64,000 nt of DNA. It comes from Caryophanales bacterium. GTDB lineage: Bacteria > Bacillota > Bacilli > Exiguobacteriales > Exiguobacteriaceae. The translations under genes were made by a program, and so were the position numbers. Shown here piece by piece: positions 26,254 to 42,226 of the stretch. The DNA lies in contig CABJAC010000002.1 of NCBI GenBank assembly GCA_902363455.1, forward strand, positions 238,502-302,501, given 5' to 3'. The notes under the pieces were generated by a model. The model made no database searches. It had not been told where the DNA came from and saw nothing but the letters and a program-made list of their open reading frames with translations. Numbering within the stretch: position 1 is the first letter of the stretch; every line of letters begins with the position of its first letter.

Positions 26254-26265
26254 CCTGCTCACTCC

Positions 26266-27264
26266 TTAAAAATCGATCGTACGCTGGATCGCTTCAAGCA
26301 CACGAGTCGGCGTCGGGATGTAATGGTCTTCGAGCGCGAATAATGGAACCGGCACATCGAATCCGGTGACCCGGGCAATCGGTGCCCGTAAATACAAGAA
26401 CGAAGTATCATTGATTAAAGCAATCAAATCATTCCCGAGTCCACCCGTTGCCTGTGCTTCATGAACGATGACAGCCCGACCTGTTTTTTGGACGGAGGCG
26501 GCAATCGTCGTCCGGTCAAGCGGATAAAGCGTCCGTAAATCAATCACTTCACAGGAAATACCGCGTGTCGCTGCTTCGGTCGCCGCTTTTTGGGCAACCT
26601 GAACCATCGCCCCCCAGGCGATGAGTGTCACGTCTTGACCTTCCGTGACGCATTTGGCTTTTCCGATTTCAACCGTGTACGACTCACTCGGAACCGGTTC
26701 CTTAAAGGCGCGGTAACTGCGCATCGATTCGAGGAATAAGACCGGGTCCGGATCTTCGATCGCTGCAATCAATAAGCCTTTGGCGTCGTAAGGCGTTGCC
26801 GGACAGACGACCTTTAAGCCGGGCATCGAGGTGAAGAGGGCTTCCGTGCTGTCCGAGTGAATTTCCGGTGCCCGAATGCCTGCCCCGTAAGGAGCCCGGA
26901 TGACCATCGGGACACCGTAACGTCCCATCGTCCGCATCCGGATTCGTGCGACATGCGTCATGATTTGTTCGTAGGCCGGATAGATGAAACCGAGGAATTG
27001 AATTTCGACGATCGGTTTAAACCCGTTGACCGCAAGACCGATTGACGTTCCGACGATTCCCGCTTCACTGAGGGGCGTATCGATGATCCGGTCTTCGTCG
27101 AATTCTTCCTGTAGACCGTCTGTTGCCCTGAACACCCCGCCGTTTTTTCCGACATCTTCGCCTAATACCAGTGTCGTCTCATCGGTCGTCAGTTTTGTCC
27201 GTAAGGCATCGGTGACAGCCTGGACAAGCGTCATCTCCGTTTGTCGATTGATTGGTGTCGCCAT
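26266..27264 (-). CDS. bkdAB: Branched-chain 2-oxoacid dehydrogenase E1 beta
   Basis: A 332-residue thiamine-diphosphate enzyme subunit with normal length. Conserved segments include LGEDVGKNGGVFRAT, DTPLSEAGIVG and the APYGAGIRAPEIHS loop near the active site. It pairs with E1 alpha to decarboxylate 2-oxoisovalerate and the related leucine and isoleucine oxoacids. Its ATG follows the alpha stop after one base, with AGGGGGAAT upstream. Confidence 0.93.
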   Translation of the reverse strand: MATPINRQTEMTLVQAVTDALRTKLTTDETTLVLGEDVGKNGGVFRATDGLQEEFDEDRIIDTPLSEAGIVGTSIGLAVNGFKPIVEIQFLGFIYPAYEQIMTHVARIRMRTMGRYGVPMVIRAPYGAGIRAPEIHSDSTEALFTSMPGLKVVCPATPYDAKGLLIAAIEDPDPVLFLESMRSYRAFKEPVPSESYTVEIGKAKCVTEGQDVTLIAWGAMVQVAQKAATEAATRGISCEVIDLRTLYPLDRTTIAASVQKTGRAVIVHEAQATGGLGNDLIALINDTSFLYLRAPIARVTGFDVPVPLFALEDHYIPTPTRVLEAIQRTIDF

Positions 27265-27265
27265 G

Positions 27266-28318
27266 TCAATTCCCCCTCGCTGTCAGGTAATCCGCTTTTT
27301 GACGGATTAAATCGTCCGGTAGTGTCGCAAACGTATGGTCAAACAAATCGTTGACGTCAGGTGAAGGGAAGGCTTCCATCGTTTTGACGGCCGCCTCGAC
27401 CTCTTCTTGATGGCGGATTCGAATCGCTTCGATTTCCTGTTCCTCGTAAAAGCCTTGTGCCTTCATGAAATCTTCCAAGCGGGTGAGCGGATCGACGCGG
27501 TCACGCGACCGGTCCTGATCGCGGTATTTCGACGGATCATCCGCCGTCGTATGCGCACCGAACCGCCATGTGACGGCTTCGATCAATGTCGGACCGCCGC
27601 CGGACCGAGCCCGCTCAAGTGCCTCTTGCATCGTGAAGTACACGGCAAAGACATCGTTGCCGTCAATCCGGACGCTTGGCATCCCATAGGCCAACGCTTT
27701 TTGGGCAATCGTTTCCGAATGCATCTGTTTCTGGATTGGGACTGAGATGGCATACCCGTTGTTTTGATTAAACAAAATGACCGGTGTCTGGAAGACACTC
27801 GCGAAGTTCATCCCTTCATGGAAATCGCCTTCCGAGGTCGCACCGTCTCCAAAATAAGCGACGGCGACTTGATTCGTCCCTTTGCGTTTTTCTGCCCAGG
27901 CCGCACCAACGGCATGGGGGATTTGTGTGGCAATCGGTACTGCCGGCGGGAAAATGTGCAACTCGTCCGTCGGGACACATCCTTCGACCCGTCCATTCCA
28001 GTACAAAAACGTCCGGACCATATCAGCGCCAAAGGTCAGTGTCGCCCCGTGATCACGATAGGTCGGGAAGATCCAGTCCTTGTTATGCAGCGCATAGGCA
28101 CTGCCGACCTGTGCGGCTTCCTGACCTTCAAACGGAGCATAGGTTCCTAGCCGTCCCTGGCGTTGCAGGTTGATCGCCTTACGGTCAAACGTCCGGATGC
28201 GGTTCATATGTGTGAACAGGGCGAGGCTCAGCTCCTTGGTCAGTAAGTCAGTTTTAGATGTATCGATCACTTGTCCCGCATCATCGAGGATACGGTGGAT
28301 CGGAAATTGGTTTTCCAT
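27266..28318 (-). CDS. bkdAA: Branched-chain 2-oxoacid dehydrogenase E1 alpha
   Basis: A 350-residue E1 alpha subunit. The thiamine-diphosphate motif runs from GDGATSEGDF to FNQNNGYA, and the phosphorylation-loop region FGAHTTADDPSKYR is present. ATG 28318 is used because GGAGGTGA precedes it; the frame extension to 28333 would use the RBS itself as coding sequence. It follows leucine dehydrogenase after a 14-base gap in the same operon. Confidence 0.93.
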   Translation of the reverse strand: MENQFPIHRILDDAGQVIDTSKTDLLTKELSLALFTHMNRIRTFDRKAINLQRQGRLGTYAPFEGQEAAQVGSAYALHNKDWIFPTYRDHGATLTFGADMVRTFLYWNGRVEGCVPTDELHIFPPAVPIATQIPHAVGAAWAEKRKGTNQVAVAYFGDGATSEGDFHEGMNFASVFQTPVILFNQNNGYAISVPIQKQMHSETIAQKALAYGMPSVRIDGNDVFAVYFTMQEALERARSGGGPTLIEAVTWRFGAHTTADDPSKYRDQDRSRDRVDPLTRLEDFMKAQGFYEEQEIEAIRIRHQEEVEAAVKTMEAFPSPDVNDLFDHTFATLPDDLIRQKADYLTARGN

Positions 28319-28332
28319 CGGTGTCACCTCCA

Positions 28333-29475
28333 TTAGTCGTTACGGATGTTCCATTTTGGTTTGATCGTATTCGTAAAGATGTTGTTATGACGTGACCGGA
28401 TTTGAATGCGTTTATTGCACATCCGGTCCGCCGCTTCAAGCGTTGTGATCGATTCCGCATGGGACTCGTGGAACACTTCGAGGACCGCATCGTAGATGTG
28501 CTTGGTTTTCAGCAAGACCCGTTCATGGTTCGCCCCGTACAATTCATCGGCGACTTGGATCAATCCGCCGCCGTTGACGATGTAGTCCGGTGCATATAAA
28601 ATGCCGCGTTGCTTTAATTCGAGTGCGAGCGCATCCACTGCCAGCTGGTTGTTGGCAGATCCGCAGATAGCCTTACATTGCAACAAGTGGATATTCGTTG
28701 CTTGGATGACGCCACCGTAAGCACAAGGAACAAAAATATCCGCATCCGTCAGATGGATTTCATGAGCGGCGATGACACGGACTGTCCCCGGCGTTTGTTC
28801 TGCCCGTTCAACGAGCATAGCCAGAACCGCTTCATTGAGATCGGAGACGTATAAGTTGGCGCCTGCGTCTAACAGCTGTTCCGCGACTTTATAGCCGACT
28901 TTCCCAAGACCCTGGACCGCGTAACTCGCCCGGCTTAAATCGTCAGATCCATACAAGGTTTCAACAGTTGCGCGCAGACCGTAGATGACACCTTCCGCTG
29001 TCGGGATCGACGAATCCCCGCTGCCGCCAAAGGCTTCCGGAATGCCGACGATCCGGGAGGTTTCCCGACTGGCGTGGACGAAGTCGTCCATCGTCGTTCC
29101 CATGTCCGTCCCGGTATAGAAACGACCGCCGAGCGAATCGACGAATCGTCCGAAGGCCCGGAATAGTTCCGGCGTCTTATCGGTTGCGGGATCACCGATG
29201 ATGACGGCCTTGCCGCCGCCAAAATCAACGTCAGCCGCGGCACATTTATACGTCATGCCGCGCGACAGGCGTAAAACATCATCGAGTGCTTCATCGACGG
29301 TTGAATACGGCGCCATCCGGCATCCGCCGAGTGCGGGACCGAGAGTCGTATCGTGAATGGCAATGATCGCCTGAAGACCAGACACAGGATCGTTACAGAA
29401 AACAACTTGTTCATGACCGGAAATCTTCTCCATGATGGATGGTGACGGGTTGGTTGATGGGTTCAACATGTTCAT
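28333..29475 (-). CDS. bcd: Leucine (branched-chain amino acid) dehydrogenase
   Basis: Deaminates leucine, valine and isoleucine to their oxoacids with NAD, feeding the complex encoded next. The 380-residue protein has the family core TTLGPALGG, substrate Lys K77 and catalytic Lys K89 (GGGK), and the NAD loop VQGLGKVG. The N-terminus carries about 14 extra Pro/Ser/Asn-rich residues compared with Bacillus enzymes. The start has AGGAGG upstream. A cre site and a candidate promoter lie just ahead, so bcd-bkd can be expressed apart from the thioesterase gene. Confidence 0.93.
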
Positions 29476-29494: not shown

Positions 29495-29538
29495 AGTAAG
29501 CGCTTTCATTTTAGGTTTTACAAAACACGCGGCGTCAA
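29495..29538 (-). promoter_or_regulatory. Internal promoter and cre site ahead of bcd-bkd
   Basis: On the minus strand TGAAAGCGCTTACT (29508-29495) matches the cre consensus in 13 of 14 positions. It starts at the end of a candidate -10 TAAAAT (29513-29508), which is 19 bases from a -35 TTGACG (29538-29533) inside the end of the thioesterase gene. CcpA would then repress branched-chain amino acid breakdown when good sugars are present. Confidence 0.7.
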
Positions 29539-29913
29539 CTTTTTCTGGATCAGCTGCTTATTTAAGATGATTTGTTTCACTTCACCCAGACCGATGACAC
29601 GGTCGCCGTGTCTGACTTCTACTTTTGCCAATACGCGGTCAGGTGTGAGTTCGATGACGGTGGCTTCGATCCGGATGTTTGATCCAAGTGTAGCCATCCC
29701 CAAATGCTTCAAAGAGACAGCACCACCGACTCCTTCTTCCTGTTCTTCGAGGTAGGGGAGGATCAGTTTCCGGGCCGCCCATTCCATATGATAGACCATT
29801 GAAACCGTAGAATAGGCAGGATGAACGACGATTCCTTCAAACTGTGCAAACATCTCTTCGGTCACGATGGCCTCAACGACGGCTGTATCTCCAAGCGACA
29901 AACCATTTCTCAA
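29518..29913 (-). CDS. FlK-like hotdog thioesterase
   Basis: A 131-residue single hotdog domain resembling fluoroacetyl-CoA thioesterase FlK. The catalytic triad of FlK (Thr42, Glu50, His76) is matched by T36 (AYSTV), E44 (HMEWA) and H70 (LKHLG) with identical spacing. It should hydrolyse an acyl-CoA. The start appears to be TTG 29913, with AAGGGGG eight bases upstream on the minus strand. It leads the bcd-bkd operon and faces the paa genes, so the substrate may be a stalled branched-chain or aromatic acyl-CoA, as PaaI does in other paa clusters. True fluoroacetate use is not implied. Confidence 0.75.
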   Translation of the reverse strand: MRNGLSLGDTAVVEAIVTEEMFAQFEGIVVHPAYSTVSMVYHMEWAARKLILPYLEEQEEGVGGAVSLKHLGMATLGSNIRIEATVIELTPDRVLAKVEVRHGDRVIGLGEVKQIILNKQLIQKKLTPRVL

Positions 29914-30235: not shown

Positions 30236-31531
30236 TTGTACAACGAAATCCTGGAAACGATGACACTGGAAGAGCGGGCTGTCTTACAACTGGGGCGTCT
30301 ACAAGAGACAATTCGTCATGTAATGAACCATGTTCCGTTTTATCAACAACAACTACAGGACCTTGGGCTTGATGCCGGTTCTTTTCAAACGATTACCGAT
30401 ATCCAAAAGTTGCCATTCACACGAAAAAATGATTTGCGTGCGCATTATCCGTTTGGATTATTTGCCGTTCCACCGAACGAAGCAGTCCGGATTCACGCGT
30501 CATCCGGAACAAGTGGAAAACCGACCGTCGTCGGTTACACACAAAGTGATCTTGATGACTGGTCGACGTCTGTCGCACGAGGCTTGATCGCAATCGGAGC
30601 AAAAGCGGACGACTTGCTTCACAATGCATACGGCTACGGATTGTTTACGGGTGGACTTGGCTTACATGCGGGAGCTGAACAACTTGGTATGACGGTCATT
30701 CCGGTATCCGGAGGAAATACGGACCGGCAGATTACGTTAATCGAAGACTTCAGACCGTCCGGTATTTGCGGAACACCCTCGTATATGTTGCATCTTGCGG
30801 AACGGATGGAAGAACATGGGCTTGATCCGAAAGCGAGCAGCCTGAAATATGGAATATTCGGAGCCGAGCCGTGGTCGGAAGAACTGCGACAAACACTGGA
30901 AGACAAGTGGGGGATTCGAGCCTTTGACATCTACGGTCTCAGTGAAATTATGGGGCCGGGTGTCGCAATGGAATGTCAGCAACAAAACGGATTACACCTG
31001 ATGGACGATTTATTTATCACGGAAGTCATTGATCCCGCAACGGGGGAACCGCTACCAGAAGGAACGGTCGGGGAACTCGTTTTTACAAGTTTAAAAAAGA
31101 AAGCGCTTCCAATTATTCGTTACCGTACAGGAGACTTGGCATCGGTGACGACAGAAACGTGTCCCTGCGGTCGGACAACGACCCGGATGTCGCGGGTCAA
31201 AGGCAGAACGGACGATATGCTGATTATTCGTGGAGTAAATGTCTTCCCGTCGGAAATCGAACGGGTTCTGTTGCAGCAAGCAGGAGTCAGTCCGCATTAT
31301 CAAATTCACCGGATTCAGCGTGCCGGGCTTGAAGCGTTGGAGTTACACATCGAATTAGAAGAAGGAATGATACCGGAAGAGATGGAACGAATCATCTGCC
31401 ATGCCATGAAAACAGAGTGCTTGATTTCGATTGATTTGGTTTGTCACCCGCTGTATGGTCTTCCACGATCGGAAGGCAAAGCGGTCCGGATCATTGACCG
31501 ACGCGCAGTGTCTGAGAAGAAGTTTGTTTAA
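30236..31531 (+). CDS. paaK: Phenylacetate-CoA ligase
   Basis: Activates phenylacetate to phenylacetyl-CoA with ATP, the entry step of the paa pathway. The 431-residue adenylate-forming enzyme has the phosphate loop HASSGTSGKPTVVGY (about residue 85), the YGLSEIMGPG motif, the RTGD hinge strand and the C-terminal RTDDMLIIRGVN segment with the mobile-domain Lys region. The start is TTG 30236, placed by GGAAGGGG at 30221-30228; no ATG gives a better N-terminus. It is the first gene of the operon. Confidence 0.95.
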   Translation: MYNEILETMTLEERAVLQLGRLQETIRHVMNHVPFYQQQLQDLGLDAGSFQTITDIQKLPFTRKNDLRAHYPFGLFAVPPNEAVRIHASSGTSGKPTVVGYTQSDLDDWSTSVARGLIAIGAKADDLLHNAYGYGLFTGGLGLHAGAEQLGMTVIPVSGGNTDRQITLIEDFRPSGICGTPSYMLHLAERMEEHGLDPKASSLKYGIFGAEPWSEELRQTLEDKWGIRAFDIYGLSEIMGPGVAMECQQQNGLHLMDDLFITEVIDPATGEPLPEGTVGELVFTSLKKKALPIIRYRTGDLASVTTETCPCGRTTTRMSRVKGRTDDMLIIRGVNVFPSEIERVLLQQAGVSPHYQIHRIQRAGLEALELHIELEEGMIPEEMERIICHAMKTECLISIDLVCHPLYGLPRSEGKAVRIIDRRAVSEKKFV

Positions 31532-31548
31532 GCAGAGGAGGAAACAAG

Positions 31549-32520
31549 ATGTATGATGCGACACATCTCTTTGAACCACCCGTCATGACAGAAGAACAAA
31601 AATTGGAACGATTTAAAGAACGGATTGAGAACGGTGAAAAAATCGAAGCAGATGACTGGATGCCCGATTTTTACCGCGATACGTTAATTAAATTGATTTC
31701 GATGCACGGGATCAGTGAAATCATGGGTGCTTTACCGGAAAAAGAGTGGGTGCCGAAAGCACCATCCTTACGCCGAAAACTCGGCATCATGGCCAAAGTT
31801 CAGGACGAAATGGGGCACGGTCAACTTCTGCTCCGGGTTGTCGAGGATTTGATGAAGCCGTACGGAAAAACCCGGGCCGATTTGATGGATGACTTGTTCA
31901 CGGGACGCCTCAAGTTCCACAATGTCTTCCATATGCCGACACGTTCGTGGGCGGATGCCGGAACAATCGGTTGGCTTGTTGACGGAGCGGCAATCATTAC
32001 CCAGACGAACATGCTGGGTGCTTCGTACGGTCCATATGCGCGGGCGCTACAACGGATTTGTGCGGAAGAAGTGTTCCATGCCCAACATGGTGAATCGATC
32101 ATCATGGCACTGGCGGAAGGAACACCCGAACAAAAAGCGATGATTCAGGAATCACTCGACGAGTGGTGGGAATCCCTGTTGATGTTCTTCGGACCGGCGA
32201 CAAAAGAAACGACCGGCACTTCGAAGCAGGACGTGACGATTGCGTACAAAATCCGGACGAAGACGAATGAAGAATTGCGTCAAAGTTTCTTTACGAAATA
32301 TGTTCCCCGGATCCGGTCGCTCGGTCTCGTCATTCCAGATCCGACGTTACGATTCGACGAGGAGACAGGGCAATGGATATATGCCCAACCGGATTGGACA
32401 GAATTTAAGAAAATCATTCAAGGCGGCGGTCCCCGTTCGAAGGAGCGGCTCGCTTTACGTCAAACTTCGTATCAAAACAATGCGTGGGTGCGCGAGGCAC
32501 TTGCTGCGACGATCGGCTGA
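31549..32520 (+). CDS. paaA: Phenylacetyl-CoA epoxidase catalytic subunit
   Basis: The di-iron subunit that turns phenylacetyl-CoA into its ring-1,2-epoxide. The 323-residue ferritin-like protein has both ExxH iron motifs: E87-x2-H90 (DEMGHG) and E174-x2-H177 (EEVFHA). ATG 31549 has AGAGGAGG upstream, 17 bases after the paaK stop. It needs PaaC as a structural partner and an electron donor, normally PaaE, for which I see no gene here. Confidence 0.95.
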   Translation: MYDATHLFEPPVMTEEQKLERFKERIENGEKIEADDWMPDFYRDTLIKLISMHGISEIMGALPEKEWVPKAPSLRRKLGIMAKVQDEMGHGQLLLRVVEDLMKPYGKTRADLMDDLFTGRLKFHNVFHMPTRSWADAGTIGWLVDGAAIITQTNMLGASYGPYARALQRICAEEVFHAQHGESIIMALAEGTPEQKAMIQESLDEWWESLLMFFGPATKETTGTSKQDVTIAYKIRTKTNEELRQSFFTKYVPRIRSLGLVIPDPTLRFDEETGQWIYAQPDWTEFKKIIQGGGPRSKERLALRQTSYQNNAWVREALAATIG

Positions 32521-32533
32521 AGGAGGAAACATC

Positions 32534-32878
32534 ATGACGGAAACGTTTTATCAGGAGTTCGAGATTTTCAGTAAACGGACACCCAACGCGGCTTTTACGC
32601 ATCAATTCAGTCTGCTCGCCCCGAATAAAGAGATGGCGTTGTTGATGGCGCAGGAAAACTTCATGCGCCGGGAACCGGTCGTCGATATCTGGGTCGTCAA
32701 ACGGGACGATATCCGGGGAATGACGCCGGACGAAAAACAAATGTTGCAACGGCTCGACAACAAGGATTACCGGACGACAAAAGGATACGGGTATCTCAAG
32801 AAAAAATGGCGGCATTACGAGCAACAGATGCTCGATGAGAAAGAAATCATGTCGTGGCAGGGAGGCGATTCGAAATGA
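32534..32878 (+). CDS. paaB: Phenylacetyl-CoA epoxidase subunit B
   Basis: A 114-residue small subunit thought to bridge two PaaAC dimers. Its N-terminus (FYQEFEIFSKRTPN) and a central LMAQENFMRREP-VDIWVV segment are typical of PaaB. ATG 32534 follows AGGAGGAAAC directly after the paaA stop. The much longer open frame starting at 32240 overlaps paaA and is rejected. Its stop overlaps the paaC start by four bases. Confidence 0.93.
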   Translation: MTETFYQEFEIFSKRTPNAAFTHQFSLLAPNKEMALLMAQENFMRREPVVDIWVVKRDDIRGMTPDEKQMLQRLDNKDYRTTKGYGYLKKKWRHYEQQMLDEKEIMSWQGGDSK

Positions 32879-33660
32879 CGGAAGCAGAACGGTTGGCTTT
32901 AGCCTCCTTGATGTACCAACTGGCGGATGACGATTTTCTTTATGCGTACCGCGGGTCGGAGTGGCTGGGTTTGGCACCGCATATCGAAGAAGATGTTGCG
33001 TCCTCCTCAATCGCCCAGGATTCGATGGGGCACGCGGCGATGTACTATCAGCTGCTCGAAGAAATCGGCGAAGGAAAAGCAGATGCGCTTGCTCATGTCC
33101 GCCTGGCACACGAACGGAAAAATTCCGTTCTCGTCGAACGGGTCAACGGTCCCGGTTACTATATGGAAAATCCAGATTATGACTGGGCGTATGCCGTCGT
33201 TCGTAATTACTGCTACACGCTCGCGAAGAAGGTCCGCATCGACTCGTTGAAAAAAAGCAGTTATGCACCGCTTGCAGCACTCGCTGTCAAGGTCAACATG
33301 GAACTGTATTATCACCTGTTGCACTGGCAAACGTGGTTCACGCAGTTGTATCGATCGACCGAAACCGCCCGTCAGAAGATGGACGCCGCCCTCGAACGGG
33401 TGCTTGCTGACTTTGGTGATCTGTTCGACTACGGGGAAGCAGCACATATGATTGACGAGATGCAGCTGATTGAAGATCAGGGAGTATTGCTAGATCGCTG
33501 GTATCAGGCGTTGACACCGGTCCTCGTGGATTTAAACGTCACGTTGCCGGAAATGAAGATGACCTATAACGGACGAAACGGAGAACATTCTTCTGATTTG
33601 AACGATGCCTTATCGACGCTCGGGGAAGTGTATCTGCTCGATCAGTCAGCGGTATGGTGA
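32875..33660 (+). CDS. paaC: Phenylacetyl-CoA epoxidase subunit C
   Basis: A 261-residue ferritin-like protein that keeps the PaaA fold active but lacks a full iron site in known members. Conserved features are the start LASLMYQLADDDFLYAYRGS, AQDSMGHA, and NYCYTLAKKVRID. ATG 32875 overlaps the paaB stop (ATGA) with GGAGGCG upstream, so the subunits are translationally coupled. Confidence 0.93.
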   Translation: MTEAERLALASLMYQLADDDFLYAYRGSEWLGLAPHIEEDVASSSIAQDSMGHAAMYYQLLEEIGEGKADALAHVRLAHERKNSVLVERVNGPGYYMENPDYDWAYAVVRNYCYTLAKKVRIDSLKKSSYAPLAALAVKVNMELYYHLLHWQTWFTQLYRSTETARQKMDAALERVLADFGDLFDYGEAAHMIDEMQLIEDQGVLLDRWYQALTPVLVDLNVTLPEMKMTYNGRNGEHSSDLNDALSTLGEVYLLDQSAVW

Positions 33661-33674
33661 AGGAGGAACGGCAG

Positions 33675-34169
33675 ATGACAACAGGACTGGAACAAGAAAT
33701 CCGGCAGGCGCTCGACACGGTCAAGGATCCGGAAATCGATGCCGTCAGCATTCTCGATCTTGGTATGTTCGAAACGATGGAGTGGACGGAGACGTCTGAC
33801 GGATATGCTGTCCGCGTCACGCTGCTTCCGACATTTTTAGGATGTCCTGCGCTTGAAATCATTCAAAAAAATACGGAAGCTGCGTTGTTACAAATCCCGC
33901 AGGTCCAGACGGTCGACGTCATGTTTCTCTTTGATCCACCGTGGACGTCGGACCGGATCACCGACCGCGGGATGACCGGACTGAAGTCCTTTGGGATTGC
34001 ACCTCCCCGTGTCATCGACGGTCATTGGGAAATCGACTGTCCGTATTGCGGTTCGACATTTGTTACGATTGAGAATTTGTTTGGTCCGACGGCTTGCCGG
34101 AGCATTCTGTACTGTAAATCATGCAAAAATCCATTCGAGGCGATGAAACCCGTCTCTACTCTCATGTGA
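33675..34169 (+). CDS. paaD: PaaD, MIP18/DUF59-type maturation protein
   Basis: A 164-residue protein with an N-terminal DUF59 (MIP18) domain (DPEIDAVSILDLGM and the TFLGCPALEIIQ helix). The C-terminal zinc-ribbon has CPYCGS and CKSC. PaaD is thought to help insert iron or iron-sulfur centres into the epoxidase system. ATG 33675 is set by AAGGAGG at 33659-33665. It is the last recognisable epoxidase gene; the next gene is not paaE. Confidence 0.93.
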   Translation: MTTGLEQEIRQALDTVKDPEIDAVSILDLGMFETMEWTETSDGYAVRVTLLPTFLGCPALEIIQKNTEAALLQIPQVQTVDVMFLFDPPWTSDRITDRGMTGLKSFGIAPPRVIDGHWEIDCPYCGSTFVTIENLFGPTACRSILYCKSCKNPFEAMKPVSTLM

Positions 34170-34184
34170 AGGAAGGTAATCATT

Positions 34185-34508
34185 ATGGTAAAACTAATTG
34201 CACTTTATACACACCCGGAGAACAAGGAACAGTTTGATGAGCATTACTTCAATGTCCACGGACCACTGACGGCAAAAATTCCCGGTCTGCAACAGATGAC
34301 GGTCACAAAAATCGTCGGTTCACCAATGGGCGGAGACGGTAAATATTATCTGATGTGCGAAATGGTTTACGAAAGCCATGAAACGATGCAGGCCGGTATG
34401 CGTTCGCTCGAAGGAAAAGCGTCCGGTAAAGATTTGATGGGCTTTGCGGGAGATCTCGTCACATTGATGATCGGTGAAGAAGTCCATGCTGACACGACAG
34501 TACGTTAA
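34185..34508 (+). CDS. EthD-family protein where paaE would be expected
   Basis: A 107-residue ferredoxin-like (dimeric alpha/beta barrel) protein of the EthD family: IALYTHPENKEQFDEHYFN at the start, the FDEHYFNVHGPLTAKIPGL motif and a YYLMCEMVYES strand. It has no cysteine cluster, flavin site or NAD site, so it is not a PaaE reductase. RBS GAAGG precedes ATG 34185, 15 bases after paaD. EthD is encoded with a P450 and its electron-transfer proteins in ether degraders, where its task is unclear. Here it may assist the epoxidase or handle a reactive intermediate; that is inference. Confidence 0.85.
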   Translation: MVKLIALYTHPENKEQFDEHYFNVHGPLTAKIPGLQQMTVTKIVGSPMGGDGKYYLMCEMVYESHETMQAGMRSLEGKASGKDLMGFAGDLVTLMIGEEVHADTTVR

Positions 34509-35262
34509 GGCGGACGTCGACGGTCGGATTGGCCGGATCCGGCTCAATCGACCGGAACGTTACAATGCCTTGAACCGGATGATGATCCGGGAAATCGTCG
34601 AAGCAATGGAACAATTTGATCAGGATGAGACGGTGGCTGTCATCGTGTTGAGCGGGGAAGGAAAATCGTTTTCAGCAGGTGCTGACATCGACGAGATGGT
34701 CGACGCGACACCGATTTCGATGGAGTTACTCGACCCCTTTACCGATTGGGACCGGATTAGCCGTCTGCATAAACCGCTGATTGCGGCCGTTCATGGATTT
34801 GTTCTCGGCGGTGGTTTTGAACTGGCACTGGCGTGTGATTTGATTTACGCGACGCCCGAGACGCAGTTTGGTTTTCCGGAGGTTGGACTGGGGGTCATGC
34901 CGGGAGCCGGCGGAACGCAACGCTTGACGAGACGAATCGGTCGGACCCGGGCACTTGAATGGTTGTGGACGGGGGAACGGATGCCGGCATCTGAAGCACA
35001 CCATCTCGGAATCATCAACCGGATGTTCGACGCGGACCAACTGGAGGAAAACGTTTTGGCGGTTGCCGAGCGGATCGCGACTCAACCAATGATGTCCGTG
35101 CGATTGATTAAAGATGCCGTCGATAAGGCAGGCGATTTATCGTTGCAGGACGGGATGGACCATGAACGGAGAAATTTCTACTTATTGTTTGGAACAGCCG
35201 ACCAGACGGAAGGTATGCAAGCCTTTTTAGAGAAACGTCAACCGACATTCAAAGGAAACTAA
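34486..35262 (+). CDS. Enoyl-CoA hydratase/isomerase, paa cluster, copy 1
   Basis: A 258-residue crotonase-fold enzyme. The oxyanion-hole segments are SAGADIDEM and GFVLGGGFELALACD, and the catalytic Glu region is FPEVGLGVMPGAGGTQRL with both Glu and Gly in place, so it is an active-looking enzyme. ATG 34486 overlaps the EthD-like gene by 23 bases; GTG 34474 is an alternative. In the paa pathway it would be either the epoxide isomerase (PaaG role) or the beta-oxidation hydratase (PaaF role). Sequence alone does not tell me which of the two hydratases here does which job. Confidence 0.9.
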   Translation: MLTRQYVKADVDGRIGRIRLNRPERYNALNRMMIREIVEAMEQFDQDETVAVIVLSGEGKSFSAGADIDEMVDATPISMELLDPFTDWDRISRLHKPLIAAVHGFVLGGGFELALACDLIYATPETQFGFPEVGLGVMPGAGGTQRLTRRIGRTRALEWLWTGERMPASEAHHLGIINRMFDADQLEENVLAVAERIATQPMMSVRLIKDAVDKAGDLSLQDGMDHERRNFYLLFGTADQTEGMQAFLEKRQPTFKGN

Positions 35263-35276
35263 AAGGAGTGGAAGCT

Positions 35277-36785
35277 ATGTCAACGGTACATGAAAAAACA
35301 ATCGAGATGAAACGGTCCGTTTATCATCTGGTCATCAACGGCGAGCAAGTCGAAGGCGCGTCAGGCGAAACATTTAAGACCTATAATCCGGCAACAGGGG
35401 AAGTCATCGCGGAAGTCGCGAAAGCGTCAAAAGCAGATGCAGATCGGGCGGTGCAGGCAGCACGAGAAGCATTTGATCACGGAAAGTGGAAGATGTGGCC
35501 GGTCGGTCGCCGGGCGCAAGTCCTCAATAAAATCGCCGGCATTATGCGCTCCCGATTCAATGAACTCGTGGAACTGGAGATTCTTGATACCGGGAAATCA
35601 CTTGCTGCAGCACAAGGGCAAATCACGCAAGCGATTGAAGACTTTGAATTTTATGCCGGAGCCATCGTCGGTCACCGTGGTGCCGTCAACAACGTGCCGG
35701 GTCAGTTCCACAACTATACGGAAAAAGAACCGGTCGGTGTCTGTGCCCAAATCATTCCGTGGAACTATCCGTTGATGATGGCCGCATGGAAAGTCGCACC
35801 GGCGATTGCGGTCGGCTGTTCGGTCGTCGTGAAACCGGCGACCCTGACGCCACTGACAGCGATCATCCTCGGTGAGATTTGTCTTGAAGCCGGTGTACCG
35901 GCAGGAGTCGTCAATGTCATTCCGGGATCAGGCCGTGAAATCGGCAACCATTTGGTAGAACATCCGCATGTCGATAAAGTCGCATTCACCGGTTCGACGC
36001 CGGTCGGAAAAGATATCATGGGACGGGCATCCGAAAGCTTAAAACGGGTCACACTTGAACTCGGCGGCAAGTCACCGAACCTCGTATTTGAGGATGCGGA
36101 TATCACGGCAGCTGTAGACGGATCACTGTTTGGTATCTTCTACAACAGCGGGCAGTCCTGTGAAGCACGGTCACGCCTTTATGTTCATGAAGACATCTAC
36201 GAAACGTTTATGGAACAGTTCGTCGCGAAGACGAAACAACTCGTTCTCGGTAACCCGTTTGACAAAGGGACACACGTCGGGGCAATCATCGACCAACAAC
36301 AACTCGATGTCATCGACGGCTATGTCCAATCGGCAAAAGCGGACGGAGCAACGATTTTAGCGGGTGGTCACGTCGAGAAGGTAGCCGGTTTTGAAGCAGG
36401 TTTCTGGTACGCACCGACCATCATTGCGGATGTCACACACGAGATGAAAGCCGTTCAGGAAGAAATCTTTGGACCGGTCGTCGTCGTAATGAAGTTCAAG
36501 GATGAAAAAGAAGCCGTCCGTCTGGCAAACGATACAGAATTCGGACTCGGATCAGCAATCTGGACAAAAGACGGGGCACGGGCAACACGGATTGCCAATC
36601 AAATCAAAGCCGGTATTGTCATGATCAACTGTCCGTTCTCGGCCTTCCCGGGGACACCATTTGGAGGATACAAACAATCTGGTTTCGGACGCGAACTGTG
36701 TATCGAAACACTTGATTTATATACGGAAACGAAAAGTATCCTGTCGTATTACGGCAGTCGTCCACTTAATCCGTTCGGACTGTAA
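35277..36785 (+). CDS. Aldehyde dehydrogenase of the paa cluster (no MaoC domain)
   Basis: A 502-residue NAD(P)-dependent aldehyde dehydrogenase with catalytic C295 (GQSCEA), general base Glu in LELGGKSPN and the FTGSTPVG cofactor loop. The position fits the PaaZ step that oxidises the ring-opened semialdehyde, but the protein ends with the ALDH domain and has no MaoC-type hydratase half. It could instead be a phenylacetaldehyde dehydrogenase feeding the pathway. ATG 35277 has AAAGGAG eight bases upstream. A hairpin terminator follows it inside the operon. Confidence 0.9.
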   Translation: MSTVHEKTIEMKRSVYHLVINGEQVEGASGETFKTYNPATGEVIAEVAKASKADADRAVQAAREAFDHGKWKMWPVGRRAQVLNKIAGIMRSRFNELVELEILDTGKSLAAAQGQITQAIEDFEFYAGAIVGHRGAVNNVPGQFHNYTEKEPVGVCAQIIPWNYPLMMAAWKVAPAIAVGCSVVVKPATLTPLTAIILGEICLEAGVPAGVVNVIPGSGREIGNHLVEHPHVDKVAFTGSTPVGKDIMGRASESLKRVTLELGGKSPNLVFEDADITAAVDGSLFGIFYNSGQSCEARSRLYVHEDIYETFMEQFVAKTKQLVLGNPFDKGTHVGAIIDQQQLDVIDGYVQSAKADGATILAGGHVEKVAGFEAGFWYAPTIIADVTHEMKAVQEEIFGPVVVVMKFKDEKEAVRLANDTEFGLGSAIWTKDGARATRIANQIKAGIVMINCPFSAFPGTPFGGYKQSGFGRELCIETLDLYTETKSILSYYGSRPLNPFGL

Positions 36786-36790
36786 AACCA

Positions 36791-36821
36791 AGCGTGCGGA
36801 CGTTCGTCCGGACGCTTTTTT
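36791..36821 (+). terminator. Intrinsic terminator inside the paa operon
   Basis: A 12-base-pair stem with one mismatch (AGCGTGCGGACG with CGTCCGGACGCT), a very tight loop and six T. It lies between the aldehyde dehydrogenase gene and paaH, just ahead of the paaH ribosome binding site, and should lower expression of the downstream genes. Confidence 0.85.
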
Positions 36822-36836
36822 AAAGGGGGAAATCAG

Positions 36837-37709
36837 ATGATGGTTCAACAGATGGTTGTTGTAGGATCGGGTGTTATGGGAAGAGGAATTGCGTATGTGG
36901 CAGCAGCCAGCGGATTTGACGTGACATTGGTGGATGTCGAGCAACAGTTGCTTGCATCGGCGCAACAGGAATTAGAAACGATTGCCGATAAAGCCATCAT
37001 CCGTGGGAAAATGACGACGGAAGAAGTCGAGCAGTTGTTTCAACGTTTGAGTTATGCAACGAAATTAGAGGAAGCTGTCAAAGAAGCGGATCTTGTAATT
37101 GAAGCTGTTCCGGAACGGCTCGAGATCAAACGGACGGTGTTTGAGACACTTGACCGCCATGCACCGGACGATTGTTTCTTTGCAACCAATACGTCGACGA
37201 TGAGTCCGACGGAGATTGCTTCGTTTACCCGTCGACCGGAACGTATCATGGCGATGCACTTCTTTAATCCGGTTCACCGGATGCCGCTCGTCGAACTCGC
37301 CCGGGGTCTTGAAACGTCAGAAGAGACCGTTTCGATTTGTGAGGATGTCGCACGTCGTATGGGCAAAGAGACGGTCGTCATTCAAGAATTTCCGGGGTTC
37401 GTCACGTCACGAATCAGTGCACTCGTCGGAAACGAAGCCTTTTATATGTTACAAGAAGGACTCGGGACACCGGAGGAAATCGATAAGGCGATTAAGCTCG
37501 GGTTGAACTATCCGATGGGACCGTTTGAACTCGGGGATTTGGTCGGACTCGACACCCGATTAAACAATTTACGGTATCTCCACGAAAAATTAGGCGAAAA
37601 ATACCGTCCTGCCCCGCTGCTTGAACAATATGTCAAAGCAGGACGCCTTGGACGGAAAACCGGGCGCGGTGTTTATGATTATTCCGACAGCGGGGTGAAG
37701 ACACGATGA
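36837..37709 (+). CDS. paaH: 3-hydroxyacyl-CoA dehydrogenase
   Basis: A 290-residue NAD-dependent enzyme for the beta-oxidation steps after ring opening. The N-terminal Rossmann loop is VVVGSGVMGRGIAYV and the catalytic His lies in MAMHFFNPVHRMPLVE. The C-terminal domain has NYPMGPFELGDLVGLD. Two adjacent ATG codons at 36837 and 36840 are possible; AAAGGGGG lies upstream. It overlaps the thiolase gene by four bases. Confidence 0.92.
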   Translation: MMVQQMVVVGSGVMGRGIAYVAAASGFDVTLVDVEQQLLASAQQELETIADKAIIRGKMTTEEVEQLFQRLSYATKLEEAVKEADLVIEAVPERLEIKRTVFETLDRHAPDDCFFATNTSTMSPTEIASFTRRPERIMAMHFFNPVHRMPLVELARGLETSEETVSICEDVARRMGKETVVIQEFPGFVTSRISALVGNEAFYMLQEGLGTPEEIDKAIKLGLNYPMGPFELGDLVGLDTRLNNLRYLHEKLGEKYRPAPLLEQYVKAGRLGRKTGRGVYDYSDSGVKTR

Positions 37710-38914
37710 GACGTGTGGCCATCATTGATGCCGTCCGTACACCGATTGGCCGGTATAACGGAGCACTGAAAGACGTCCGTCCGGATGATTTAGGGGCCTG
37801 TGTCATTCAAGCACTCGTTGACCGGAATCCAAAGGTGGATCCGAGTCAAATCGAAGAAGTGATTTTCGGAAATGCCAATCAGGCAGGAGAAGACAATCGG
37901 AATGTCGCCCGGATGTCCGGTTTGCTTGCTGGTCTACCGGTCGAAGTCGCCGGGACGACCGTCAACCGGCTGTGTGGATCTGGACTCGATGCCATCATCG
38001 CAGCAGCCCGGGCGATTGCAATGAACGAAGGGGAGATATATATTGCCGGCGGGACAGAAAGCATGACCCGGGCACCACTCGTCATGGCAAAGACCGAAAC
38101 CGGTTTTGCCCGAGGGAATACAACGGTATATGACACGACGATCGGCTGGCGGTTCGTCAATGAAAAACTGGATGCCAAGTACGGAACAGACTCAATGCCG
38201 GAGACGGCGGAACACGTGGCAGTCCGTTACGGGATCTCACGCGAAGTGCAGGATGATTTTGCCTTTTTAAGTCAGCAACGGGCCAAACAGGCGATGGAAA
38301 CACATCGTTTTCAAACAGAACTTGTTCCCGTGCAGTATACGACACGCAAAGGACAGATCATCGAAGTGGATACGGATGAACATCCGCGCCCTGACACCAG
38401 CCGTGAAAAACTCGGAACGCTCAAAAGTCTGTTTCCAAATGGCACGGTCACGGCGGGAAATGCTTCCGGTGTCAACGATGGAGCAGCCGCCTTATTGTTA
38501 ATGAGTGAAGAAACGGCAGATCGTCTTGGATTGACTCCGCTCGCCTATTACCGGGCCAGTGCCGTCGCCGGTGTCGAACCGGCGGTCATGGGAATCGGAC
38601 CGGTCGATGCGACCCGCAAGGCTTTGGACCGGGCGGGATTGACAGTGGAGCAACTGGATTTGGTTGAATTGAACGAAGCCTTTGCAGCGCAAAGTATAGC
38701 CTGTATGCAAGAGCTCGGACTACCGCCGGAAAAAGTCAACGTCAACGGAGGGGCAATCGCATTTGGTCATCCACTGGGGGCAAGCGGAGCACGAATTGTA
38801 ACGACGCTAGTACACGAGATGTGCCGTACGAATCAGACATATGGTCTCGCGACGATGTGTGTCGGAGTCGGACAAGGTGTTGCCCTTGTGGTCGAACGGG
38901 AGGGACTCACATGA
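37706..38914 (+). CDS. paaJ: Acyl-CoA thiolase (3-oxoadipyl-CoA type)
   Basis: A 402-residue degradative thiolase. The nucleophile is C90 (NRLCGSG), and the other active-site motifs [23 protein letters not shown] and CVGVGQG are all present. In the paa pathway PaaJ splits both the C8 and C6 oxoacyl-CoA intermediates to acetyl-CoA and succinyl-CoA. Its start overlaps the paaH stop and its own stop overlaps the next hydratase start, both ATGA. Confidence 0.92.
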
Positions 38915-39681
38915 TTCATTTGGAACGATTGGACCACGTCGCGGTTATTCGGATTGACCGGCCCGAACGGATGAACTGTTTTGATTATCCGACGCTCGTC
39001 GAGTTGCAACAGCTTGTCGCGACGGTCCGTCACAATCCGATGATCCGGGTTGTCCTCTTTACGGGAACGGGAAAAGCGTTCAGCGCCGGTGCTGATTTAA
39101 AAGAACGGACCACATTGGATGAAACACAAGTCCGGCGAAACGTCGCGGCCATTCGTGATGTCTTCACAGATATCGCCAATCTGCCGCAACCGACGATTGC
39201 TGCCGTCAACGGTCATGCTCTCGGTGGCGGCTTCGAATGGATGCTCGCCTGTGATTTCCGAATCATCGTAAAAGGAGCATTGATCGGACTGACGGAAACC
39301 AGTTTTGGCATCATTCCGGGCGCCGGCGGGACGCAACGACTGCCGCGGTTGATTGGAGAGACTCGGGCGAAGGAACTGATTTTCACGGCTAAGAAGATTG
39401 ATGCGGAGACCGCTGAACGATACGGGATCGTCTCGCGTGTCGTCTCGACGGTGGAAGAACTGATGGAGGTCTGTCTGGCTTTCGCCGACGAGATGCTCCG
39501 CAACGGACCGATTGCGATCCGGCAGGCCAAACAGGCGATCGATCAAGGTCTCAATCATTCACTCTCGGAAGGATTGGAAATTGAAACTGCTGCCTACGAA
39601 ACGGTCATCCCGACGGAAGACCGGATGGAAGCATTACGTGCGTTTGCCGAAAAACGGACACCGCAGTTTCAAGGGAAATGA
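38911..39681 (+). CDS. Enoyl-CoA hydratase/isomerase, paa cluster, copy 2
   Basis: A 256-residue crotonase-fold enzyme with oxyanion-hole segments SAGADLKER and GHALGGGFEWMLACD and the TETSFGIIPGAGGTQRL region that carries one of the two catalytic Glu positions. ATG 38911 overlaps the paaJ stop; the frame continues upstream but only over paaJ. It shares about half its core with copy 1 at 34486. One of the pair is expected to be PaaF and the other PaaG. One of them, or an outside gene, must also make up for the missing ring-cleaving hydratase. Confidence 0.9.
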   Translation: MIHLERLDHVAVIRIDRPERMNCFDYPTLVELQQLVATVRHNPMIRVVLFTGTGKAFSAGADLKERTTLDETQVRRNVAAIRDVFTDIANLPQPTIAAVNGHALGGGFEWMLACDFRIIVKGALIGLTETSFGIIPGAGGTQRLPRLIGETRAKELIFTAKKIDAETAERYGIVSRVVSTVEELMEVCLAFADEMLRNGPIAIRQAKQAIDQGLNHSLSEGLEIETAAYETVIPTEDRMEALRAFAEKRTPQFQGK

Positions 39682-39757
39682 GGATGGTCGTCACCTGAAA
39701 TAACACGTATACTAACGGTACACGAAAAAACGTTATATTAAAGAGAGAGTGAATGAC

Positions 39758-40642
39758 ATGAGTGCGAATACACAATCAATGATTTTTACGGTATACGGAG
39801 ATTATATCCGGCATTATGGCAATCAAATCTGGGTCGGTAGCCTGATCCGTCTGCTCAAAGAATTTGGCCATAATGAACAGGCGGTCCGGGTCGCCGTTTC
39901 CCGGATGGTCAAACAAGGGTGGTTGACGTCACAAAAACAAGGCACGAAAAGTTTTTATTCGTTGACCCCACGCGGCGTTGAGCGGATGGAAGAAGCGGCG
40001 AGACGAATTTATAAATCGACGCCTCACGTCTGGGACGGGAAATGGCGGACTCTGATGTATACGATTCCGGAAGACAAACGGCAAATCCGTGATGAACTGC
40101 GGAAAGAGTTGTCTTGGAGTGGCTTCGGAAATTTATCAAACGGTGTCTGGATTTCACCGAACCCCCTTGAAAAAGAAGCGGAACGGTTGATTGAAGCCTA
40201 TGATATTAAGGAGTACGTCGACTTTTTCGTCGGCGAATACCATGGACCACAACCGGATCAATCGCTGGTCGAACGGGCTTTCCCGCTGGATGAGTTGCAA
40301 GAACGGTACGAACAGTTCATTGCGGAATACAGCCGACGTTATATCGTTCATCAAAGCCGGATCCAGCTGGACGAAATGGATGAGGAACAGTGTTTTGTTG
40401 AACGGACGACACTCGTCCATCAATACCGGAAGTTTTTATTTACGGATCCTGGTCTGCCGCAAGAGTTGTTGCCGGATGAGTGGAGCGGTCATCACGCCGC
40501 GTTGTTGTTTGAACAGTATTACCGGTTGCTCGCCGAACCGGCAAGTCGGTTCTTTGAAGGGATTTTTCAGGAAACACACGATGTCACCCAAAAAAGTGCC
40601 GATTATGACGCTTCAGAACATCCATTGTTTGCGGAGCGTTAA
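39758..40642 (+). CDS. paaX: PaaX-family repressor of phenylacetate genes
   Basis: A 294-residue GntR-like regulator of the PaaX family. The N-terminal winged helix (about 10-75) contains NEQAVRVAVSRMVKQGWL. The central domain has the typical WDGKWRTLMYTIPEDKRQIRD segment and GFGNLSNGVWISPN. PaaX is released from DNA by phenylacetyl-CoA. ATG 39758 is placed by AGAGAG upstream; GTG 39749 is an alternative. The gene has a 76-base gap with possible own promoter and carries a TATACTA motif matching the paaK promoter repeat. Confidence 0.92.
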   Translation: MSANTQSMIFTVYGDYIRHYGNQIWVGSLIRLLKEFGHNEQAVRVAVSRMVKQGWLTSQKQGTKSFYSLTPRGVERMEEAARRIYKSTPHVWDGKWRTLMYTIPEDKRQIRDELRKELSWSGFGNLSNGVWISPNPLEKEAERLIEAYDIKEYVDFFVGEYHGPQPDQSLVERAFPLDELQERYEQFIAEYSRRYIVHQSRIQLDEMDEEQCFVERTTLVHQYRKFLFTDPGLPQELLPDEWSGHHAALLFEQYYRLLAEPASRFFEGIFQETHDVTQKSADYDASEHPLFAER

Positions 40643-40693: not shown

Positions 40694-41212
40694 TTAATTC
40701 TCGGAGAGTTGTTGTCGGAAGGCGTATCCTTTATCGACATACGAATCAATCGATTCTTGAATCATCTCTAGATCTGCTGGTGTGAGTTCCCGTACAACTT
40801 TTCCCGGCGAACCGATAATGAGCGAGCGGGGCGGGAATTTCTTGCCAGACGGAATCAATGTGTTGGCGCCGATAATGCATTCTTCCCCAATTTCGGCATG
40901 ATCCAGAACGGTCGCACCCATACCAACGATCGAGCGTCGACCGATTTTACAACCGTGAAGAATGGCGTTGTGCCCGACAGTCACCTCATCTTCGACGATG
41001 ACAGGTGCCCCCTCATAGAGATGGATGGTCGCATTGTCCTGAATGCTGCACCGTTGGCCGATCGTAATCGGTCCTTCATCGCCACGAAGGACCGCATTAA
41101 ACCAGATCGTCGATTCTTCGCCGACTGTTACGTCACCAATTAAAAATGCGCCGGGTGCGACAAAAACATTTGTTGCCAAGCTGGGAGAAACATCACGATA
41201 CGGAATATTCAT
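40694..41212 (-). CDS. Left-handed beta-helix protein, gamma-carbonic anhydrase/PaaY type
   Basis: A 172-residue hexapeptide-repeat protein with repeated (I/V/L)-G-x4 turns over residues 15-130 and metal-type histidines in ATIHLYEG and VGHNAILHGCKIG, like YrdA and PaaY. PaaY is a thioesterase that removes dead-end ring-CoA products in some paa clusters; other relatives have unknown roles. Its position beside paaX supports a PaaY role but does not prove it. It lies on the opposite strand with its own promoter. Confidence 0.8.
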   Translation of the reverse strand: MNIPYRDVSPSLATNVFVAPGAFLIGDVTVGEESTIWFNAVLRGDEGPITIGQRCSIQDNATIHLYEGAPVIVEDEVTVGHNAILHGCKIGRRSIVGMGATVLDHAEIGEECIIGANTLIPSGKKFPPRSLIIGSPGKVVRELTPADLEMIQESIDSYVDKGYAFRQQLSEN

Positions 41213-41290
41213 TAAGACGCCTCATTTCTAAAAATGAATTTAAATTCAGTTCAGTATACCATTAGTCGAAACAAAAACGGGGGGAAGACC

Positions 41291-42226
41291 ATGTCGCGTA
41301 TATGTACTAAATTACAAATCGATGTGCCGATCATTCAAGGTGGCATGGGAAACATCAGTCATGCTGAGTTGACGGCAGCGGTTTCGAATGCCGGCGGACT
41401 TGGAACGATTGGATGCGGGACGATGACACCTGTTGAAGTCAAACAATTGATTAAAGAGACACGCCGGTTGACGTCGCGTCCGTTTGCTTTAAATATCGCG
41501 ATCCGGGTCTCGCCGTATACGGAAGACTTAATCACATTGGCGATTGAGGAAAAAATGCCGGTCGTGTCCTTGTCGGCCGGTAATCCGGCTCCGTTTTTGT
41601 CCAAGTTACGGCAGGCGGGAATCCAAACAATTGGTGTAGTTGCTTCCGTCAAACAGGCCGTTAAAGCCGAACAGGCAGGAATGGATATACTAGTGGCAGA
41701 AGGAGTCGAGGCCGCAGGAATCAATTCGCCACTTGAGTTGACGACAATGACGTTGATTCCGCAAATCACGGATCATGTTACGATTCCTGTTCTCGCCGCC
41801 GGTGGAATCGGTGACGGTCGTGGTCTCGCAGCTGCCTGGATGCTCGGGGCAGAAGGGGTACAACTGGGAACCCGGTTGATTGCGACGCAAGAATCCCGTG
41901 TGCATGAGCATTATAAAAGACATCTTGTGCAGGCGGATGATCTCGAGACACGGATTATTGGTCGTGAAGTCGGACAAGTCCGGCGTGTCTTGAACGGAGC
42001 GTATGTGGAAGGGTTACGTCCTGCGTCGCTCGCTGAGTTCCAAGAAAAAACGAACGAATCATTTCATATCAAAGGGGCACTTGAGGGCGACGAGACAGCA
42101 GGATACGTCAATGCCGGTCTCGTCGCCGGTTTGATTGATGATGTTCCAACCGTTGCGGAACTGTTTAACCGGATGATGGATGACGCCTTCGGACGGATTG
42201 AACGGATGTATCGGACACTTCAATAG
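41291..42226 (+). CDS. Nitronate monooxygenase / FabK-like flavoprotein
   Basis: A 311-residue TIM-barrel FMN enzyme of the nitronate monooxygenase/2-nitropropane dioxygenase family. It has the N-terminal IIQGGMGNISH motif, VSLSAGNPAPF, the FMN strand VLAAGGIGDGRG and GAEGVQLGTRL. It resembles YrpB-type and FabK enoyl-ACP reductases, which cannot be separated here. ATG 41291 has GGGGGGAAG upstream. It is monocistronic and divergent from the paaY-like gene. Confidence 0.85.
   Translation: MSRICTKLQIDVPIIQGGMGNISHAELTAAVSNAGGLGTIGCGTMTPVEVKQLIKETRRLTSRPFALNIAIRVSPYTEDLITLAIEEKMPVVSLSAGNPAPFLSKLRQAGIQTIGVVASVKQAVKAEQAGMDILVAEGVEAAGINSPLELTTMTLIPQITDHVTIPVLAAGGIGDGRGLAAAWMLGAEGVQLGTRLIATQESRVHEHYKRHLVQADDLETRIIGREVGQVRRVLNGAYVEGLRPASLAEFQEKTNESFHIKGALEGDETAGYVNAGLVAGLIDDVPTVAELFNRMMDDAFGRIERMYRTLQ

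Follow-up and report, generated by a model that had tools for sequence, protein, structure and literature searches.

In this 64,000-nucleotide window, the whole stretch of contig CABJAC010000002.1 that was analysed, the phenylacetyl-CoA epoxidase genes paaA, paaB, paaC and paaD belong to a phenylacetate operon that holds no paaE, and a gene for a small EthD-family protein lies at paaE's usual place. We propose that the cluster represents the phenylacetate operon as it occurs in Bacillota, in which PaaABC would be an ordinary di-iron epoxidase matured by PaaD and would be fed not by the fused reductase PaaE but by a YumC-type ferredoxin-NADP reductase (FNR) together with a single-cluster [4Fe-4S] ferredoxin, with EthD as a separate enzyme of the pathway. 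We regard this account, taken as a whole, as moderately probable. In roughly one in four of the sampled Bacillales loci, the donor reductase would be the one encoded beside paaA, usually together with the ferredoxin; in Exiguobacterium, a single ferredoxin and a YumC-type reductase from elsewhere in the chromosome would supply the electrons. The genes at issue are the following:

31549..32520, + strand: paaA, di-iron catalytic subunit (TIGR02156, 456 bits, cut-off 280)
32534..32878, + strand: paaB, bridging subunit, its ATG start picked by eye in the open frame (TIGR02157, 115 bits, cut-off 85)
32875..33660, + strand: paaC, structural subunit, start by eye, the listed open reading frame (ORF) running from GTG 32854 (TIGR02158, 217 bits, cut-off 133)
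33654..34169, + strand: paaD, SufT-like maturation protein with a C-terminal zinc ribbon (TIGR02159, 150 bits, cut-off 108; PF23451)
34185..34508, + strand: paa-type EthD, 107 residues, a dimeric alpha-beta barrel without cofactor motif, at paaE's usual place

PaaA, PaaB, PaaC and PaaD all score above the curated NCBIfam cut-offs and follow one another in that order from 31549 to 34169. The EthD gene opens 16 bases past the end of paaD, its product matches TIGR02118 (109.4 bits, cut-off 30.5) and PF07110 (44.9 bits, cut-off 22), and its 3' end overlaps the start of the crotonase gene ECH1. The canonical order followed by EthD, with no paaE, that a first-pass annotation of this DNA had read from the letters is thus borne out. 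The PaaABCE epoxidase of E. coli and Pseudomonas (3PW1 complex) has the same order of PaaA, B, C and D, and the window's PaaA aligns with it over nearly the full length (residues 19-320 against solved E. coli PaaA, 3PVR and 3PW1, E 2.5e-87); unlike that system, the present cluster has no PaaE, carries an EthD gene after paaD and encodes an aldehyde dehydrogenase without the PaaZ hydratase domain. A close published counterpart is the cluster of Exiguobacterium sp. RIT 594, whose PaaA (L002) is 99% identical to ours, which places the window in Exiguobacterium. For that cluster the consulted parts of PMC9416434 give the same gene list, with an 'EthD family reductase' as paa6, and read EthD as pointing to a pathway that avoids oxepin; in those parts the missing PaaE is not discussed, and the string 'paae' occurs 0 times in the text of the paper.

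The lack of PaaE extends well beyond the window. Searching the window's PaaA against 84,980 species genomes gave 452 confirmed candidates, of which the best 80 loci, all from Bacillota, were kept; with E. coli PaaE as a phmmer query (E up to 1e-4), none of these 80 loci nor the window gave a match, whereas the query's own locus (L082), the positive control, scores 796 bits. Among the 65 distinct window ORFs compared with Pfam and/or NCBIfam there is no ferredoxin and no PaaE-type pair of FAD and NAD domains, and the window ORFs beyond these, covered by a cysteine-motif scan only, yielded two short + strand frames (18472-18807 and 25901-26191) lying across other genes. The first-pass annotation had seen no reductase with a ferredoxin cysteine cluster or an NAD/FAD motif in the 64 kb; this holds in that nothing PaaE-like is present, but NAD/FAD or flavin proteins do occur, none of them PaaE-like, for example a dihydrolipoyl dehydrogenase (23644-25044) and a nitronate-monooxygenase-like protein (41234-42226). 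At the genome level, the PaaE profile TIGR02160 was run on 25 + 10 = 35 related genome entries (34 if G001 and G005, with identical coordinates, are one genome, as is probable; the ten Exiguobacterium entries are then nine genomes) and exceeded its cut-off in 0/25 and 0/10, in a search where, in contrast to the loci search, no control genome exceeded it either. Because no PaaE stands above the cut-off in these 35 entries, the epoxidase probably uses another donor, as the first reading had suggested. A paaE relocated within Exiguobacterium was considered and rejected, since the TIGR02160 matches in the ten entries stop by profile position 247 of 352, before the ferredoxin part, and the plant-type [2Fe-2S] domain Fer2 (PF00111) is found in 0/10 of them, with controls positive in 12/14; we take the partial matches to be flavohaemoproteins.

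A candidate for that other donor lies beside paaA itself. With reductase matches below 300 bits and ferredoxin matches below 40 bits set aside, a YumC-type FNR is encoded near paaA in 21 of the 80 loci, 20 times directly upstream on the same strand at a distance of 82 to 681 bases, and a ferredoxin likewise in 21 of the 80; both occur in 19, and 18 of these pairs are upstream of and co-directional with paaA. The reductase loci span six named genera (Bacillus, Priestia, Sporosarcina, Psychrobacillus, Rummeliibacillus and Siminovitchia) and one Bacillaceae. A scan of the 80 loci for a plant-type ferredoxin motif had returned only frames judged unlikely; the actual ferredoxin came to light when the gap preceding paaA was read, and a ferredoxin frame is present in 12 of the 14 such gaps examined among the 21 reductase loci. 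The pairing has irregular members: the ferredoxin of L023 scores 44.5 bits against 117-171 in the others, L042 has its ferredoxin on the opposite strand and no reductase, L052 has the ferredoxin alone, and L018 and L019 have the reductase alone. The paa-linked reductase matches solved B. subtilis-type FNR2 (3LZW, E 3e-176), and the ferredoxin matches the Bacillus-type ferredoxin (1IQZ, E 8e-34) and PF13370 (Fer4_13), a single-cluster 4Fe-4S family.

The reductase tree, from which 14 rows repeating a paa-linked one and 20 weaker or partial copies were left out, unites the 21 paa-linked reductases and 12 other copies in one branch (UFB 94 / SH-aLRT 96, barely under the tool's star), with 6 label changes observed against 17.4 in shuffles; its midpoint root is unreliable because of one very long branch (L210). 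Seven further reductase-ferredoxin cassettes were hand-chosen in three genomes, where more exist: five adjoin a Rieske oxygenase, one an intradiol dioxygenase, and one no recognised oxygenase. These cassettes (L274-L280, in G019, G036 and G011) occur several to a genome, those flanked by Rieske genes being L275, L276, L277, L279 and L280 (Pfam Rieske and Ring_hydroxyl_A), and a plant-type [2Fe-2S] ferredoxin gene (PF00111) also lies near the Siminovitchia cassette L278 (4996-5358). Since the pair is linked to paaA and to Rieske oxygenases alike, it looks like a portable electron-supply module for oxygenases. The path of electrons from this pair to PaaABC, and any protein contacts on the way, we infer. 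In the related di-iron epoxidase BoxAB, which acts on benzoyl-CoA, the reductase is not PaaE-like and does not co-purify, according to the consulted parts of PMC4498308; the donor proposed here would differ in consisting of two separate proteins. The EthD gene in this cluster and partial paa clusters in Bacillota are already in print, and the link to the reductase and ferredoxin was not found there: among the open-licence papers searched, none connects a paa epoxidase with a YumC-type FNR.

EthD, in turn, is tied to the pathway. Counted over recognised genes, EthD directly follows paaD in 76 of the 80 loci, and ECH1 comes next in 74 of these (in the other two, the next recognised gene is PaaG-like in one, and there is none in L050, a short contig), so that the conserved position suspected in the first reading is upheld. 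In the four remaining loci (L039, L048, L053 and L067; three Siminovitchia and one 'Bacillus sp.'), the genome carries EthD elsewhere, in a second locus shared with ECH1 and the gene of a PaaG-like crotonase (4/4). The second loci of Siminovitchia and a kin genome (L124-L127) are partial, reading paaA2-paaB2-EthD-ECH1-PaaG in three and paaB2-EthD-ECH1-PaaG in one, and neither paaC nor paaD was recognised in them. Across 398 Bacillota genomes, the same draw for the paaA and EthD surveys as far as the listed handles show, paaA was found in 11 genomes; paa-type EthD, counted at E up to 1e-20, is present in 8 of these 11 and in 0 of the 387 without paaA (Fisher 1.1e-14, in a test that ignores kinship, 4 of the 8 EthD genomes being one genus); because of this co-occurrence, the membership of EthD in the paa pathway of Bacillota is supported. 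Random placement beside unrelated operons, which would have refuted the first reading, was looked for in 21 genomes and did not appear, the best EthD of each lying in a paa locus; a further EthD of G018, weaker at 57 bits, has other surroundings. The genus that contributes four genomes has its EthD 10-30 kb from paaA, and near one such distant EthD (L264, 2300-2985) there is a CRISPR-like array in which a repeat of roughly 30 bases recurs about ten times at a spacing of 65-69 bases. A protein search returned 491 EthD relatives, which served as background only.

Does EthD itself replace PaaE, as electron donor or as an essential part of a reductase? Its place after paaD in those 76 loci, the NCBIfam family name 'EthD family reductase' and the proposal, reported in the consulted parts of PMC9416434, that EthD is a ferredoxin-associated reductase all point this way, yet we hold the idea to be highly improbable. 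No conserved cysteine cluster and no NAD/FAD motif was seen in 77 aligned EthD sequences. The EthD-family protein BH0200 of Bacillus halodurans (PDB 2FTR), 70% identical to the window's EthD with an rmsd of 0.9 over 99 residues, is a dimeric alpha-beta barrel. Of the 21 FNR loci, 17 hold EthD as well, and where clusters are split, EthD stays with crotonase or ligase genes. Moreover, paaE-less clusters occur with no EthD nearby (L171 and L172, where the locus only was searched), and because EthD is absent from the paaA genomes G247 and G387 and only weak in G408, a paaE-less cluster can evidently do without it. Thus, of the interpretation first put on this operon, the link of EthD to the pathway stands and a different donor is probable, but EthD is not a convincing candidate for that donor.

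Another role can be drawn by analogy. MmoB is the coupling or effector protein of methane monooxygenase, and EthD might in a similar way bind PaaABC and tune oxygen activation, a role that we consider unlikely. EthD is small, has no cofactor motif and adjoins paaABCD, or the paaA2-paaB2 or paaB2 copies, in most loci, as such a protein might. In G197, however, EthD sits between paaK-like and ECH1-like genes, and in G408 its weaker relative (63 bits, outside the 8) sits in a row paaK-EthD-crotonases-dehydrogenase-thiolase, both away from paaABCD; for the known enzyme, PaaA, B, C and E are enough in vitro (PMC4498308, in the parts consulted).

We favour EthD as a cofactor-free dimeric alpha-beta barrel enzyme that most likely works alongside the crotonases on the reactive product of the epoxidase, be it the epoxide or the oxepin-CoA derived from it. 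Two cofactor-free catalysts, 4-methylmuconolactone methylisomerase and olivetolic acid cyclase, are among the barrels near EthD in fold; the former (3HDS) shares 27% identity with EthD on structure and a weak profile match (E 0.006), and it acts on a free lactone rather than a CoA ester. The title of entry 2FTR names no function, and a literature search by its names gave no paper on the protein among the matches listed. For EthD with phenylacetic acid and Bacillus, only PMC9416434 was found among the open-licence papers searched. The other genes in and beside the operon are the following:

29518..29913, - strand: PaaI-like / FlK-type acyl-CoA thioesterase, divergent from the operon (PF22636, 110 bits)
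30236..31531, + strand: paaK, phenylacetate-CoA ligase (TIGR02155, 553 bits, under the cut-off of 646)
34486..35262, + strand: ECH1, PaaF-like crotonase, start by eye, listed ORF from GTG 34474
35277..36785, + strand: aldehyde dehydrogenase without PaaZ hydratase domain, start by eye, listed ORF from GTG 35268 (PF00171, 598 bits, single domain)
36837..37709, + strand: 3-hydroxyacyl-CoA dehydrogenase, paaH role (NF006722, 517 bits, above the cut-off of 429)
37706..38914, + strand: thiolase, paaJ role (NF006551, 590 bits, slightly under the cut-off of 605; TIGR01930 above cut-off)
38908..39681, + strand: ECH2, crotonase, start by eye, listed ORF from 38821
39749..40642, + strand: paaX repressor (TIGR02277, 324 bits, above the cut-off of 265)
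40694..41212, - strand: gamma-carbonic-anhydrase / PaaY-like protein (NF050158, 201 bits, cut-off 250, and TIGR02287 PaaY, 138 bits, cut-off 320, both under)

From paaK to paaX, the twelve genes occupy 30236-40642 on the + strand. Besides an aldehyde dehydrogenase, the pathway requires PaaG as epoxide isomerase and an oxepin-CoA hydrolase; in bacteria with a separate aldehyde dehydrogenase, the hydrolase was unidentified to the knowledge of the authors of PMC9007349, who predict a crotonase in Paraburkholderia (both from the consulted parts of that paper). The window's aldehyde dehydrogenase has 505 residues and one Pfam domain, with no fused PaaZ C-terminal hydratase, and so the oxepin-CoA hydrolase is without an assigned gene here; fused PaaZ (TIGR02278) is above cut-off in 0 of 16 genomes, with no fused match among the matches listed. 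ECH1 reaches 180 bits to the alternative oxepin-CoA hydrolase model NF046063 (cut-off 300), which is not among the best 25 of 73 families for ECH2. True hydratases have a glutamate at both of two positions, and in the alignment ECH1 and ECH2 keep both. Three things make EthD a candidate for the hydrolase: its tie to the pathway, a fold that acid-base catalysts use, and its place with crotonase or ligase genes in split clusters. That paa-type EthD is a new cofactor-free pathway enzyme such as an oxepin-CoA hydrolase, with PaaABC fed by FNR and [4Fe-4S] ferredoxin, we offer tentatively, as a possibility of fairly low probability.

Two rules for the presence of EthD were tried; the first was rejected and the second was not borne out. 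Loss of paaG in Exiguobacterium is not the reason, since a PaaG-like crotonase is encoded outside the paa cluster in 10/10 Exiguobacterium entries (233-249 bits, cut-off 345), and a PaaG-like gene stands in the cluster in 64 of the 80 loci against EthD in 76. Nor does EthD occur exactly where fused PaaZ is absent: a Haloferax plasmid cluster has a separate aldehyde dehydrogenase and no EthD found nearby, as does a Thermus plasmid cluster, whose PaaA is distant (26% identity), and neither EthD nor, among the matches listed, a fused PaaZ occurs in G247 and G387. A Deinococcus plasmid cluster, with an annotated bifunctional PaaZ and no EthD, fits the rule. In G366, which reads paaABCD-EthD-paaK-ALDH (ALDH, aldehyde dehydrogenase), a lone PaaZ-type hydratase domain (151 residues) accompanies EthD.

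Several points weigh against the account proposed here. First, for the donor, the local reductase is missing in 59 of the 80 loci, the 10 Exiguobacterium loci included, and the window has no local reductase-ferredoxin pair either; in L017, reductase and ferredoxin form a divergent paaK-FNR-ferredoxin unit. Contiguous but distant relatives of PaaE that have both parts (95-115 bits against a cut-off of 421) occur in 5 of the 35 entries, all outside Exiguobacterium, on contigs other than that of paa or about 88 kb off, and G366 has two with the parts in the other order, away from paa; these could serve as donor in their genomes. Second, for EthD, many of the folds nearest to it have no known function, no residue is tied to a reaction, and both proposed substrates are guesses. 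EthD was not found in G247 and G387, the Haloferax cluster lacks it nearby, and of the four stretches taken from the genus with distant EthD, the three displayed show no recognised paa neighbour. Third, all 80 loci belong to a single phylum, often to sister species, and because the genomes are related, 21 of 80 are not 21 independent events, a kinship that the Fisher test ignores as well. Co-location of genes is not proof of electron transfer or function.

The missing local pair in particular leaves some room for another reductase or a flavodoxin as the donor in Exiguobacterium, the pair next to paa elsewhere being a convenience of gene order; that PaaE is the most weakly bound subunit of the known complex (PMC4498308, in the parts consulted) would agree with this. 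Such a convenience is made less likely by the six named genera in which the reductase recurs next to paaA and by the similar cassettes that adjoin Rieske oxygenases, and we give this alternative a real but minor chance. For the two-protein chain, Exiguobacterium has the parts elsewhere in the genome: 5 genomes each carry a single ferredoxin homologue, about 75% identical, and 4 each carry two homologues of the reductase, at about 60% and 40%. With these at hand, supply by housekeeping proteins is the simplest idea.

Beside the paa operon, on the opposite strand, lies a 2-oxoacid dehydrogenase cluster (E3, E2, E1 beta, E1 alpha) with a Glu/Leu/Phe/Val dehydrogenase gene (23644-29475), and similar E1 genes were seen by eye close to the second paa locus of Siminovitchia. 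The nitronate-monooxygenase-like flavoprotein gene (PF03060, 41234-42226) follows the paa cluster, and by eye a like gene has the same place in 7 of 10 displayed loci. In the Haloferax gibbonsii plasmid pHG2 (L172, 10526-10693), a gene annotated 'PaaE' has a product of about 56 residues that is similar to PaaD's zinc-ribbon end; it scores 29 bits against the window's PaaD, which itself reaches 49 bits, under cut-off, with the haloarchaeal PaaE model NF041869. The name 'PaaE' appears misleading for this gene.

Currently, paa clusters of Bacillota are described as 'almost exclusively' partial, with PaaA-C only, and those of Halobacteria as only partial (PMC13186573, in the parts consulted). Our analysis offers a concrete donor candidate for the paaE-less epoxidases in Bacillota. 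It also corrects a tempting misreading, suggested by the database family name, of EthD as a reductase. EthD is a conserved, structurally solved and functionally blank protein, and it is a candidate for the oxepin-CoA hydrolase step.

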